From: Arthrobacter sp. Leaf234
GTDB lineage: Bacteria > Actinomycetota > Actinomycetes > Actinomycetales > Micrococcaceae
Assembly (NCBI RefSeq): GCF_001422665.1
Contig: NZ_LMLU01000007.1
Coordinates: forward strand, 60,892 to 124,891
Direction: 5' to 3'
Length of the DNA stretch: 64,000 nt
The notes beneath the pieces are model-generated. The model saw only the letters and a list, made by a program, of their open reading frames with translations, searched no databases and was not told the DNA's origin. This document shows positions 3,778 to 44,944 of the stretch, piece after piece. Position 1 is the stretch's first letter. Each line of letters starts with the position of its first letter. The position numbers and the translations under genes were made by a program.

Positions 3778-3895
3778 GCCGATCCTTCGCCGCTACGACG
3801 GCTCCGGGTGATGGCAGCAGTGGACCCCGTGCCGCGGCGGACCACGGCAGAGCCGCGGCCCATCGATCGGGCAGCGGACAGTGCACTGCTGTGCG

Positions 3896-4034
3896 TGCTT
3901 CTCCCATCCAGACTTTGACTGTCGGTCCCGGAATTCCACCGGCTCAACCGCCCTCGTTCCGCGGGTGCGGAACGACGGAGCGGGTCGCGGACTATCACCG
4001 CCGGTTCGGACTTACACCGACCCCGGAGCACGTA
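3896..4034 (-). ncRNA. FMN riboswitch (RFN element) of the rib operon
   Basis: Read on the minus strand, the conserved blocks appear in order: CGGGGTCGGTGTAAGTCC, CCGAACCGGCGGT, a variable stem, CCGGTGGAATTCCGGGACC, CGACAGTCAAAGTC and TGGATGGGAGAAG. This is the canonical six-stem FMN aptamer. The remaining roughly 118 bases before ribM contain G/C-rich palindromes that could form the expression platform. High FMN should repress ribM-ribD-ribE-ribB-ribH. Confidence 0.95.
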
Positions 4035-32362: not shown

Positions 32363-33466
32363 TCAGGTCCAGTAGAGGAGGCGCGCCGCCGGGACACGCC
32401 GCTCGAGCTCGTCGACGAACCAGGTCCGCATCTCGCTCATCGTCTGCTTCGGGTACACGTACTTGATCCCACCGAACTTCGAGCGCTTCCGACTCCGCAG
32501 GTCCTCGTCCATCTCGAGCTTCGTCCGCGGGTACCAGCCGAGCAGCACCTCCTTGCTGGCGGGCGTGAACCGGTGCGTGATGATCTCGGCCGTGAGGTCG
32601 ACGTCCTCGATGCCGTCGAGGGCAGCGGCGACGTCGTCGAGCAACGCGCCGTACTGCTCACGCCAGCCGGGGACGGGCATGATGGGGGCGATGGTCAGGC
32701 CCACACGGTAGCCTGCCGCCGCGACCGCGCGGAGCGCCGTGAGCCGTGCGGGCATCCTGGCCGTCCCGCCCTCGAAGCGGTTGGCCACCTCGGCGGCGTT
32801 GACCGAGAAGCGCACCCGTGTCCGGCCGCCGTGATCCAGCGTCACCAGCTCGCCGACGTCGTCGAACTTCGTGGTGAACCTCAGCTGGACGTCCTCGCCG
32901 AATTCTCCCGAGCCCACGCGGGAGATCGCCGCCGCGAGCGAGCCCGTCACGTTCTCGATGCCGAGCGGATCGGTGTAGCAGGACATCTCGAAGGTGGTGC
33001 CCTCGCCACCTCGCTCGATGGTGCCGCTGGTCACGGAACCCCGGCCGGCGTGCGTGCGCACCCCGTCGAGGACGTCGTCGAGGTTCGCGTAGACGCGGGT
33101 CACCGGCGGACCCTGGAGCGAGCCGGCCAGATAGCAGTACTGGCAGTGGGCGGGACAACCCTTCGCGAGGTCGATCCGCCAGTCGGCACTCGGGGGGATC
33201 GGCTGGGGCTTCAGCGCACTGGGCGGTGCGACGACGACGGCCAAAGTGTTCTTCGCCGACGCATAGGTCTCCCGTTCCGTGGCGCCGCGGAGCCCCGTCA
33301 GGGCGTTACCGGGGAGGACGCGGATGTCCTCCACTCCGGCTGCCTCACAGCGGCGGACGATCTCCGCGGTGTGCGGCAGGTCGGAGGCTGCACGCGTGAT
33401 CAGCACATGGCGCGGGACCCACAGGCGCGTGGGGGTGATCGTGGTCAGATCCTGTTCCTGGGGCAT
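32363..33466 (-). CDS. splB: spore photoproduct lyase family radical SAM protein
   Basis: Radical SAM enzyme of 367 residues that resembles Bacillus spore photoproduct lyase along its whole length. The 4Fe-4S cysteines are C104, C108 and C111 in [11 protein letters not shown] (CX3CX2C), with the conserved Tyr residues of the motif. A cysteine equivalent in context to the H-atom donor of SP lyase occurs at C163 in [13 protein letters not shown]. Shared segments include [46 protein letters not shown] and [12 protein letters not shown] lyase repairs the thymine dimer spore photoproduct. The ATG with AGAAGG at 8-base spacing is preferred over a GTG and an ATG just upstream. It is divergent from the SAM-IV unit. 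Confidence 0.85.
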
Positions 33467-33650
33467 CGTCATCACCTTCTACAACACTGCGAAGGGTGCT
33501 TATGTTCCGCGGGCGACGGGTGTCGGGCACCGGTCTCCGGGGCGAGGCGGACCGAGCATCCCGGTCTGCCACGTGAGGCTGCGGGGCGTCATCGGAGGTC
33601 ATCGGGGGTCACGCTCCGACGCATTCCGGCACACCGGCGGTGGGACGGCC

Positions 33651-33656
33651 TAGCCT
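33651..33656 (+). promoter_or_regulatory. candidate -10 element of the SAM-IV riboswitch transcript
   Basis: TAGCCT lies 8 bases before the first aptamer stem base and would place the transcript start at or near the riboswitch 5' end. No strong -35 was identified. Confidence 0.4.
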
Positions 33657-33663
33657 CGGAGGA

Positions 33664-33779
33664 CAGATCAAGAGTTCCGACGCGAAGCCCTGGCTCGTCG
33701 GACGGCAACCCCCTCCGTGGCGGGGTGCCCCAGGTGACGATCAGGCCCCGCGCAGCCCGCGTCGGGGCAAGCACGGCGC
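33664..33779 (+). ncRNA. SAM-IV-type riboswitch
   Basis: The sequence resembles the actinobacterial SAM-IV aptamer remembered from Mycobacterium along its length. In order: a short closing stem (GATC at 33666 with GATC at 33739), AAGAGT, a 6-bp stem CCGACG/CGTCGG (33677-33682 with 33696-33701) enclosing AAGCCCTGGCT, the invariant GGCAACC (33704-33710), a stem ending in GGGGTGCCCC (33722-33731), AGGTGACGATCAGG, and a 3' GGGGCAAGC block (33764-33772) in the place of the SAM-IV pseudoknot segment. SAM binding should turn down the two downstream genes. A covariance-model search was not possible here. Confidence 0.82.
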
Positions 33780-33814
33780 GCACCCCTGGTCCGCGTCCTG
33801 ACGACGGGACACCC

Positions 33815-34426
33815 ATGTCGTACATCTGCCTCCTGCTCTCCGGGGCCGCCCTGCTGATCAACGGCGTCTCCCTGCTCGGCCGCGTGACCCCGCGCGACGC
33901 CGGTTTCTTCAACATCGCGATCGGCCTGCTGCAACTGGTCGTGGCGCTGCTCGTCGCCTCGTCCGATCCCGGCGCCGCCGGATCGGCGGCCGGGATCGTC
34001 CTGTTCGGCCTGACCTACCTGTACGTGGGGCTGGGCTCGGTCGCAGGCCTCGGATCGGCCGGCGTCGGCTGGTTCTGCGGCTTCGTCGCCGTGCTCGCCC
34101 TCGTCCTCGCCGGCACGGCAGCCCGCGAGGACCCTGTGAGCTCGGTGCTCTGGATCAGCTGGGCCGCGCTCTGGACCCTGTTCTTCCTGCTCCTCGCCCG
34201 CGGCGCGGAGCGCCTCACGCGGGTCACCGGCTGGAGCGCGATCCTCGTGGGCACAATCAGCACCGTGGTCCCCGCGCTGCTCGGCCTCAACGGCGCCTGG
34301 CCGGGCGGGACGACGGCCGTCATCGCGACGGCCGTGGTCCTCGGTGCCCTCTTCGCGGTCGCCGTCACCCTCGGCGGCCGGCCCGTACCGGTCATCGCCG
34401 CGCAGCCGGTCGCCGTCGACGCCTGA
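33815..34426 (+). CDS. AmiS/UreI-family channel or transporter
   Basis: Membrane protein of 203 residues with about six helices. It matches AmiS/UreI proteins, the family of the short-chain-amide transporter AmiS and the acid-gated urea channel UreI: LLLSGAALLINGVSLLGRVTPRDAGFFNIAIGLLQ at the start, GLTYLYVGLGSV...GVGWFCGFVAVLALV in the middle and TRVTGWSAILVGTISTVVPALLGL near the end. These channels pass small neutral polar molecules. It directly follows the SAM-IV riboswitch and precedes a flavin monooxygenase, with no amidase or urease nearby, so a small organosulfur permeant is inferred rather than urea. No strong SD is visible. Confidence 0.82.
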   Translation: MSYICLLLSGAALLINGVSLLGRVTPRDAGFFNIAIGLLQLVVALLVASSDPGAAGSAAGIVLFGLTYLYVGLGSVAGLGSAGVGWFCGFVAVLALVLAGTAAREDPVSSVLWISWAALWTLFFLLLARGAERLTRVTGWSAILVGTISTVVPALLGLNGAWPGGTTAVIATAVVLGALFAVAVTLGGRPVPVIAAQPVAVDA

Positions 34427-34488
34427 CAACCGCTCTACACCCCTCCCGCGCCCTGTCCGCCCTGCATCCCTTCATCGAAAGGTCCGTC

Positions 34489-35730
34489 ATGACCACCATC
34501 ACGAACATCACCCGCACTGCCGATGCCGACTACGAGCTCCTCGCCGCCCGCTTCCGCCCGCTCTTCGCCAGGATCGCCGACGGAGCCTCGCGGCGGGACC
34601 GTGAGCACGAACTCCCCCGCGCCGAGATCCGTGCCCTGATCGACGCGGGCTTCGGCGCCCTCCGGGTCCCCGTAGCCGCCGGCGGTTTCGGCGCCTCCCT
34701 ACCCCAGCTGTTCCGGCTGCTCACCGAGCTCGCCGCGGCCGACCCGAACATCCCGCAGGCCCTGCGTGGCCACTTCGCCTTCGTGGAGGACCGGCTGGTC
34801 TCCTCGGGCCCGCACCGCGAGACGTGGCTCAGGCGGTTCGTCGACGGCGAGACGGTCGGGAACTCCTGGACCGAGGTGGGCGGCGTCACGATCGGCGACG
34901 TGATCACCAAGGTCAGTCCCGATCCGGACTCCGGGGGGTTCCTCGTCAGCGGCACCAAGTACTACTCCACAGGCAGCATCTTCGCCGACTGGATCGACAC
35001 CTTCGCCCAGCGCACCGACAACGGCGTCAAGGTGATCGCCGTCGTCAGTGCCCACCAGCCGGGGGTCACGCACGCCGACGACTGGGACGGCTTCGGCCAG
35101 CAGACCACCGGCTCCGGGACGTCGACGTTCGACGCAGCACGCGTCGACGCCGAGAACGTCATCGACTTCGATACCCGGTTCGCCTACCAGACCGCGTTCT
35201 ACCAGGCGGTGCTGCTTGCGGTCCTTGCCGGGACCATCAAGGGCGCGGAGCACGACGTCGCCCGCGAGGTCCGGACCAGGACGCGGATCTTCAGCCACGG
35301 GAATGCTCCATCCTTCGCGGCCGATCCCCAGATCCTGCAGGTCGTCGGGGAGGTGTCCGCGGCCGCGTATGCGGCGGAGGCGACGGTCGAGCGTGCCGCG
35401 CGGGCGCTGCAGCACGCCTACGAGGGCGCGTTCCTCGATGACGAGGCCGAGGACGAGCGGCGCAACGACGTCGCCGAGCTAGAGACCGCGAAGGCCCAGG
35501 TGATCCTGTCCGCCCTCGCCACGCGGGCTACGTCCGACGTCTTCGGCGCCCTCGCGGCCTCGGGCGTGAGCACGGCGAAGAACCTCGACCGCCACTGGCG
35601 CAACGCGCGCACCGCCGCCAACCACAACCCCTGGGTCTTCAAGGCCAGGATCGTCGGTGACCATTCGGTCAACGGCGCCGTACCACCGCGGATCTGGTCC
35701 ATCGGGTCCGCGCCGGCGCCGGGCGCCTGA
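34489..35730 (+). CDS. DszC/SfnB-like flavin-dependent monooxygenase (acyl-CoA dehydrogenase fold)
   Basis: Product of 413 residues with the acyl-CoA dehydrogenase fold: an N-terminal helical domain, a central beta domain (EVGGVTIGDVITKV...VSGTKYYSTGSIFADWIDTFAQ) and a C-terminal helical bundle (ARTAANHNPWVFKARIVGDHSV). The lack of a catalytic acyl-CoA dehydrogenase context and the similarity to DszC (dibenzothiophene oxidation) and SfnB (dimethyl sulfone use) point to an FMNH2-dependent oxygenase in sulfur acquisition. It lies 62 bases after the AmiS/UreI gene and is probably under the same SAM-IV riboswitch. A flavin reductase partner is not seen nearby. GAAAGG precedes the ATG. Confidence 0.82.
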   Translation: MTTITNITRTADADYELLAARFRPLFARIADGASRRDREHELPRAEIRALIDAGFGALRVPVAAGGFGASLPQLFRLLTELAAADPNIPQALRGHFAFVEDRLVSSGPHRETWLRRFVDGETVGNSWTEVGGVTIGDVITKVSPDPDSGGFLVSGTKYYSTGSIFADWIDTFAQRTDNGVKVIAVVSAHQPGVTHADDWDGFGQQTTGSGTSTFDAARVDAENVIDFDTRFAYQTAFYQAVLLAVLAGTIKGAEHDVAREVRTRTRIFSHGNAPSFAADPQILQVVGEVSAAAYAAEATVERAARALQHAYEGAFLDDEAEDERRNDVAELETAKAQVILSALATRATSDVFGALAASGVSTAKNLDRHWRNARTAANHNPWVFKARIVGDHSVNGAVPPRIWSIGSAPAPGA

Positions 35731-35747
35731 TGCCGAGGGACTGCGGC

Positions 35748-35828
35748 GCGTCCGTCGCGTCCGTCGCGTCCGTCGCGTCCGTCGCGTCCGTCGCGTCCGT
35801 CGCGTCCGTCGCGTCCGTCACGTCCGTC
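35748..35828 (+). repeat. 9-bp noncoding tandem repeat array
   Basis: Eight exact copies of GCGTCCGTC (35748-35819) are followed by one copy differing at its first base (ACGTCCGTC). The array begins 18 bases after the monooxygenase stop and lies before a convergent small gene. It can be read in frame on the minus strand as Asp-Gly-Arg or Thr-Asp-Ala repeats, but no credible gene includes it. Confidence 0.95.
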
Positions 35829-44799: not shown

Positions 44800-44852
44800 G
44801 GTGGCGACCTCTCGCGATGGGGCGGCAGGACGCACGGGGCCGAGGGCCCGGC

Positions 44853-44938
44853 AGGACATCCCTTCGCCAGTATGAGCTGGATCAGGTTCGACGGGTCTCT
44901 TCTCAGCCCCTCCCTTGGAGGGACACCCCGTGTCACTG
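44853..44938 (-). ncRNA. TPP riboswitch (THI element) of thiM-thiE
   Basis: The minus strand shows the canonical blocks in order: GACACGGGGTGTCC, GGGGCTGAGAAGAGACCC, GAACCTGATCCAGCTC and ATACTGGCGAAGGGATG. This is a standard TPP aptamer. About 55 bases separate it from the thiM start; translation control by masking the GAGAGG site is plausible. Confidence 0.96.
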
Positions 44939-44944
44939 CTCGAA

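Follow-up and report, generated by a model that had tools for sequence, protein, structure and literature searches.

The stretch analysed here, called the window throughout, is 64,000 nucleotides (nt) of contig NZ_LMLU01000007.1 (positions 60,892 to 124,891) from Arthrobacter sp. Leaf234, whose genome comprises 3.5 Mb in 12 contigs. It carries an S-adenosylmethionine (SAM) riboswitch aptamer of the SAM-IV class, followed on the same strand by the gene of an AmiS/UreI-family channel and that of a sulfur-type flavin monooxygenase dependent on reduced flavin mononucleotide (FMNH2). An earlier reading of this DNA made without database searches (hereafter the sequence-only reading) had placed the aptamer 35 bases before the channel gene, and this is exactly the distance from the aptamer end to the AmiS ATG (33815). 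The channel and monooxygenase genes lie 62 nt apart on the same strand and are for this reason probably cotranscribed. The features are, in window coordinates:

33666..33779, + strand: SAM-IV riboswitch aptamer (RF00634, 85.9 bits, E 5.8e-14; pair counts on 23 aptamers)
33666..33669, + strand: 5' strand of stem P1, GAUC, partner at 33739-33742
33689..33693, + strand: 5' strand of pseudoknot PK-1, CCUGG, partner CCAGG at 33730-33734
33715..33719, + strand: 5' strand of pseudoknot PK-2, CCGUG, partner CACGG at 33772-33776
33778..33810, + strand: putative expression platform, a hairpin at 33778-33794 followed by a hairpin at 33795-33810 (leader folds)
33815..34426, + strand: AmiS/UreI-family channel gene, 203 amino acids (PF02293, 147.8 bits)
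34489..35730, + strand: FMNH2-dependent group D (acyl-CoA-dehydrogenase-type) monooxygenase gene, SfnB/DszC/MsuC-like, 413 amino acids (Pfam domains, solved relatives, His379)

An Rfam cmscan of the whole window recovered the full SAM-IV model (positions 1-116) with 85.9 bits (gathering score 38) and both pseudoknots, which bears out the SAM-IV-like aptamer of the sequence-only reading. The conserved blocks lie at 33704-33710 (GGCAACC), 33722-33731 (GGGGTGCCCC) and 33766-33772 (GGCAAGC); the first and the last had already been named in that reading. The SAM-IV architecture, as outlined in the available part of PMC6890682, consists of P1, P2a/b, P3, P5 and the pseudoknots PK-1 and PK-2, and the window aptamer forms all of these pairings. 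When the structure, including both pseudoknots, was written out and scored on 23 aptamers from the window genome and related loci, 96.9% of the cells were paired, as opposed to only 36-44% in a control with the partners slid by 1-3 columns, and 16 of the 38 pairs showed changes on both sides. All five PK-1 pairs are kept in 23/23 aptamers and PK-2 is paired in 95.7% of cells, with two of the five pairs changed on both sides in each pseudoknot. Four of five pairing measures were higher than in any of 500 shuffles; for the number of pair types, the remaining measure, 69/500 shuffles were equally high. We infer that the aptamer controls the gene behind it through SAM binding, as a translational OFF switch.

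In the leader between aptamer and start codon, the 3' strand of the second hairpin (33795-33810) contains the purine-rich stretch that precedes the ATG. At least two consecutive hairpins are present in the minimum-energy folds of 16/16 leaders ending at the start codon, and the second as a rule includes the corresponding purine-rich stretch. Termination was also considered as the switch, and no intrinsic terminator was found on the + strand. These folds weakly support the post-aptamer hairpins as a candidate expression platform.

The protein encoded directly downstream matches PF02293 (AmiS_UreI) at 147.8 bits, against a cutoff of 25, over profile positions 1-165 of 166, so that the family assignment made from the bare sequence holds. 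By family it would be a urea/amide-type channel, with conduction predicted. The urea channel of H. pylori (3ux4) is matched weakly (E 0.0021). In this alignment Trp153 and Tyr88 of UreI, in what we take to be its numbering, fall on W120 and Y68 of the window channel, and both positions are invariant in 21/21 aligned channels. Trp153 and Tyr88 are constriction residues according to the available part of PMC4482100.

For the monooxygenase, the N- and C-terminal Pfam domains of the acyl-CoA-dehydrogenase type are above cutoff, and the middle domain falls just below it (30.5 bits, cutoff 33.3). Among solved structures it is closest to MsuC (6u76, 121 bits), TdsC and DszC. The C-terminal His379 is invariant in 25/25 aligned relatives, and MsuC and TdsC each have a His at the aligned position; its equivalent in DszC has a catalytic role. 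The sequence-only reading had called the enzyme DszC/SfnB-like, of which the domain family stands, with MsuC, TdsC and DszC nearest among solved structures, while an identity with either namesake does not: the protein reaches neither the SfnB model TIGR04022 (258.7 bits, cutoff 430.9) nor the DszC model NF043015 (120.6 bits, cutoff 850), and SfnB or DszC proper is ruled out by these two curated cutoffs. Orthologues from Pseudomonas (L143) and Microbacterium (L157) are likewise under both. Moreover, the orthologue in “Candidatus Leucobacter sulfamidivorax” (L160) adjoins a true SfnB (575.2 bits), suggesting that SfnB and the window enzyme represent separate, sister families. Judged by these scores, the window enzyme belongs to a family of its own, of the kind that also includes SfnB and DszC.

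The sequence-only reading had proposed that the riboswitch controls channel and monooxygenase and had called for a survey of their co-occurrence. Among 395 genomes from the bacterial family of the window, 114 contain PF02293, with 122 matches by our count. Sixty AmiS loci were sampled, 40 from the low-scoring group (no more than 158.6 bits) and 20 from the high-scoring one, two of them short because of contig ends (L076 and L087), and all were scanned with Rfam and with our own SAM-IV model R1, which has a pseudoknot-free structure and one poorly aligned row (L005). A SAM-IV riboswitch lies upstream of AmiS in 15 of the 60 loci; the monooxygenase adjoins AmiS in these same 15 and in 0/45 of the others, so that riboswitch, channel and enzyme form one conserved unit in a quarter of the sample and the remaining loci have neither riboswitch nor enzyme. 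The 45 others comprise 16 with a formamidase gene, 14 with glutamate dehydrogenase, two with aldehyde dehydrogenase, one with a urate-pathway-type gene and 12 with none of the six partner genes searched. A role of every AmiS of these genomes in a sulfur unit is ruled out by these 45 loci.

At a threshold of at least 77% identity the monooxygenase is present in 17/395 genomes, namely those of the 15 loci, the window genome and one more (G278), in which a SAM-IV riboswitch precedes the enzyme and AmiS is absent. The 16 AmiS units (the 15 and the window) fall into seven groups, between which the flanks show no similarity (tblastx, 1e-30); these seven contexts without shared flanks suggest that the unit is either mobile or retained as a whole.

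The glutamate-dehydrogenase-linked AmiS class consists of L056, L057, L060, L062, L064, L065, L067, L068 and L070-L075, and ten of these 14 loci also have an APC-type amino-acid permease. At L066, which is one of the 15 SAM-IV loci, an apparent uracil/xanthine-type permease was seen by eye upstream. Residues W113, W116, W120, Y68 and F64 are identical across the AmiS classes. In the first transmembrane segment (TM1), the window class differs from the formamidase-linked channels at I4, C5, L8, S9, A12 and L14; several of these differences are common to the glutamate-dehydrogenase-linked class and are therefore not sulfur-specific.

Beyond the family, contigs were scanned with the monooxygenase alignment, and the best 80 of 111 confirmed candidates gave 79 distinct loci; among these best 80, the closest named relative is that of Arthrobacter bussei (98% identity). 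AmiS lies upstream of the enzyme in 25/79 loci, being split over two reading frames in one of them (L134), and in three (L132, L133 and L159) the sequence begins too near the enzyme gene for AmiS to be judged. Of the 25 channel-enzyme loci, 11, all Micrococcaceae, have SAM-IV ahead of AmiS. The riboswitch was also found ahead of an enzyme pair in five further loci of Arthrobacter, and among 22 loci scanned with Rfam a SAM-I riboswitch precedes the orthologous enzyme pair in four of Glutamicibacter type (L146, L147, L150 and L154). Thirteen loci lacking AmiS were tested for a remnant of it and none was detectable. Mapped on the enzyme tree, the AmiS label requires five changes by parsimony (77 rows), of which well-supported branches force at least three. 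The distances of channels and enzymes are correlated (r 0.92 for 25 loci including the window and excluding L134, with 0/999 permutations as high), a value that still includes shared species history. In a contig of a Burkholderiales metagenome-assembled genome (L117:1676-7224), an orthologue with no AmiS lies about 25 nt behind the genes for an ATP-binding cassette (ABC) transporter of Liv/Urt type (branched-chain amino acid/urea-like).

The rest of the genome agrees with a sulfur rather than a nitrogen setting, as the sequence-only reading had supposed: the other SAM-IV riboswitches stand before methionine genes, an ABC transporter and two loci with sulfur-type monooxygenases, and a SAM-I riboswitch stands before sfnG, the dimethylsulfone monooxygenase gene. 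Five SAM-IV riboswitches were reported. Of the four others, one stands before metY-metX, one before an ABC transporter whose binding protein is of family 3, one before an NtaA/DmoA-family monooxygenase accompanied by an NlpA-type ABC system, and one before an ABC system behind which lie an NtaA/DmoA-family monooxygenase and an enzyme of SfnB type. The only SAM-I reported precedes sfnG (TIGR04021, 620.1 bits, cutoff 382.95). The sfnG reading frame abuts a MetY gene, and an ABC system of SsuA type lies about 4 kb upstream. SfnG passes the TIGR04021 cutoff in both genomes tested (G000 and G379).

The sfnG gene is found in 17/17 genomes with the enzyme at no less than 77% identity, compared with 94/378 others; within the genus of the window the figures are 10/10 and 13/28 (hypergeometric p 0.0024, with no correction for descent). 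In 15 of these 17 genomes a SAM-I riboswitch is found no more than about 150 nt ahead of SfnG; in G379 it is about 5 kb upstream, heading Ssu-type genes, and in G106 no SAM-I was found near SfnG. The orthologue adjoins SfnG in 4/79 loci (L142, L143, L157 and L158), and in G030 it is within 4 kb of it. Further riboswitches were seen around these loci. At L179:6325-6500 (- strand), a cyclic di-AMP riboswitch (44.1 bits) lies about 500 nt upstream of a SAM-I/sfnG unit on the opposite strand. The formamidase-linked AmiS of L184 (genome G190) has five SAM-I riboswitches within 19 kb around it, one of which precedes an OsmC-like gene and then a symporter-like gene, both named by eye.

Taken together, the regulon and the class of the enzyme point to sulfur scavenging when SAM is limiting as the likely role. 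We estimate, from sequence evidence, a probability of roughly 0.6 that the locus is a SAM-repressed sulfur-scavenging operon in which the channel admits, and the enzyme oxygenates, a small neutral organosulfur compound; it is the conserved pairing that suggests the channel as substrate carrier. With ample SAM, the aptamer would fold with both pseudoknots and the downstream hairpin would cover the ribosome-binding site; at low SAM, translation would begin. The channel would then pass a small, neutral, polar organosulfur compound across the membrane, and the monooxygenase, supplied with FMNH2 by an unlinked reductase, would oxygenate its sulfur. The product may be handed to other SAM-controlled sulfur monooxygenases, above all to SfnG with the MetY encoded behind it.

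The best guess at the substrate, though short of probable, is dimethyl sulfoxide (DMSO), or else dimethyl sulfide (DMS) or dimethyl sulfone (DMSO2). A channel for neutral molecules the size of acetamide or urea would suit DMSO. According to the available part of a 2026 paper (PMC13352529), DMS is converted in Acinetobacter baylyi to DMSO and on to DMSO2 by the group D monooxygenases Dms1-3, and the DMSO2 is then acted on by SfnG. A wider proposal, possible but short of probable, is that the AmiS/UreI subfamily found here is dedicated to small neutral organosulfur compounds (DMSO, DMSO2, DMS), that the nutritional role of UreI-type channels includes sulfur in addition to nitrogen, and that SAM-I and SAM-IV jointly run an organosulfur-oxidising regulon in Arthrobacter.

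Several observations weigh against the scavenging operon. Homologous loci without the riboswitch, which the sequence-only reading had named in advance as contrary evidence if combined with a response of the genes to nitrogen rather than sulfur, do exist: set against the 11 loci with SAM-IV, 14 of the 25 channel-enzyme loci have none detectable with model R1. All 14 are Microbacteriaceae (Curtobacterium, Frigoribacterium, Salinibacterium and one more genus), and in five of them an Rfam scan found no riboswitch of any class. That these loci keep the pair even so counts in favour of a link between channel and enzyme. At L108 the riboswitch stands directly before the monooxygenase with no AmiS, and AmiS is also missing from loci of Cryobacterium, Rathayibacter and C. 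flaccumfaciens. The genome counts, without exception, are inflated by common descent. The matched constriction residues are the same in the formamidase-linked AmiS, so that the pore gives no pointer to sulfur. When coding bases are added to the leader, the second stem of the window pairs otherwise, with an unremarkable energy (z -0.53); folds reaching into the coding region are in general less uniform (six z-scores from 0.12 to -3.33, one of the six below -2), and consensus folding with RNAalifold found no compensatory pairs in the post-aptamer region. SfnG is present in only 5/40 genomes with a less similar orthologue (52-69% identity). Finally, SsuD/MsuD (TIGR03565, E 1e-60) was found in 0/17 genomes, with the controls E. 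coli, B. subtilis and C. glutamicum positive, suggesting that the usual end of the DMSO2 route is missing, more distant or carried out by another enzyme.

Some of this evidence bears on what the pair might do instead. Its substrate could contain both sulfur and nitrogen, the channel keeping its amide/urea specificity and the enzyme removing the sulfur from a sulfonamide, thiourea or thioamide; a sulfonamide or thiourea-like compound is the main alternative substrate, and we regard such a unit as unlikely. It would fit the constancy of W113, W116, W120, Y68 and F64 across the AmiS classes, the position beside glutamate dehydrogenase of the class that shares several TM1 residues, and the orthologue in “Candidatus Leucobacter sulfamidivorax”, at the locus with the true SfnB. 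This bacterium degrades sulfonamides. However, formamidase and glutamate dehydrogenase are both absent from 15/15 SAM-IV loci (blastp, about 7 kb), no amidase or urease was seen by eye in the eight of these 15 loci that were inspected, and it is SfnG that the orthologue adjoins in four loci.

UreI-type channels are facilitators that run in either direction, and AmiS could accordingly be an outward vent that releases a small neutral product such as formaldehyde, urea or ammonia, with the substrate entering by diffusion or through an ABC transporter. The retention of the enzyme without AmiS in L108 and elsewhere is in keeping with this, as are the ABC transporter genes at both other organosulfur-type SAM-IV loci of the window genome; but the sequence gives no support for export in particular, and we find a vent quite improbable. 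Still less probable is that AmiS has a nitrogen-related job and merely shares the transcript, by chance or hitch-hiking. Its label does switch several times on the enzyme tree (five times by parsimony, at least three of them forced), whereas the pair recurs in seven flank contexts in one family and again in a second family, and the enzyme accompanies none of the 45 other sampled AmiS loci. The scavenging operon, with AmiS as the entry route, is the reading that we prefer.

Other features of the window lie outside this unit. Divergently oriented upstream of the riboswitch is a spore photoproduct lyase homologue (32363-33475, - strand; PF20903, 276.5 bits, under the TIGR04070 equivalog cutoff), and the gene after it is pdxS; Arthrobacter is not known to be a spore former. 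A 9-base unit, CGCGTCCGT, is repeated 9.1 times at 35747-35828, beginning 17 bases past the stop codon of the monooxygenase. Two ordinary riboswitches are also present on the - strand: one for flavin mononucleotide at 3892-4034 (91.3 bits), upstream of PnuC-like and riboflavin genes, and one for thiamine pyrophosphate at 44842-44940 (67.5 bits), upstream of ThiM and ThiE-like genes, the genes in both cases named by eye.

If the scavenging operon is real, the UreI family would reach beyond nitrogen, SAM riboswitches would govern organosulfur oxidation, and the part of actinomycetes in soil sulfur cycling could be approached from here. Passage of DMSO, DMS or dimethyl sulfone across the membrane is not a topic of the available part of the DMS-oxidation paper (PMC13352529). 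Among the matches listed from open-licence PubMed Central, no title or start of an abstract linked AmiS/UreI with sulfur scavenging or with a SAM riboswitch, which is not proof that no such report exists. A SAM-controlled channel gene coupled to a group D monooxygenase gene would be a concrete, testable candidate for organosulfur entry.

Compared with known systems, the aptamer is in the score class of other SAM-IV riboswitches (RF00634) and shares P1-P3, P5 and both pseudoknots with them, with the difference that it precedes an AmiS/UreI gene. Similarly, the channel has the family score of AmiS/UreI proteins (PF02293; UreI 3ux4) and Trp and Tyr at the reported constriction positions, but it is paired with a sulfur-type monooxygenase behind a SAM riboswitch, and not with a formamidase or glutamate dehydrogenase. 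With SfnB and DszC the enzyme shares the domain family and the class of two-component flavin monooxygenases, while lying under both equivalog cutoffs. A further parallel may be Dms1, Dms2 and Dms3, likened here by description only, which are also group D enzymes of sulfur scavenging acting upstream of SfnG/MsuC-type enzymes; the available part of their account (PMC13352529) mentions neither a riboswitch nor AmiS, the two elements that accompany the enzyme in Arthrobacter sp. Leaf234.

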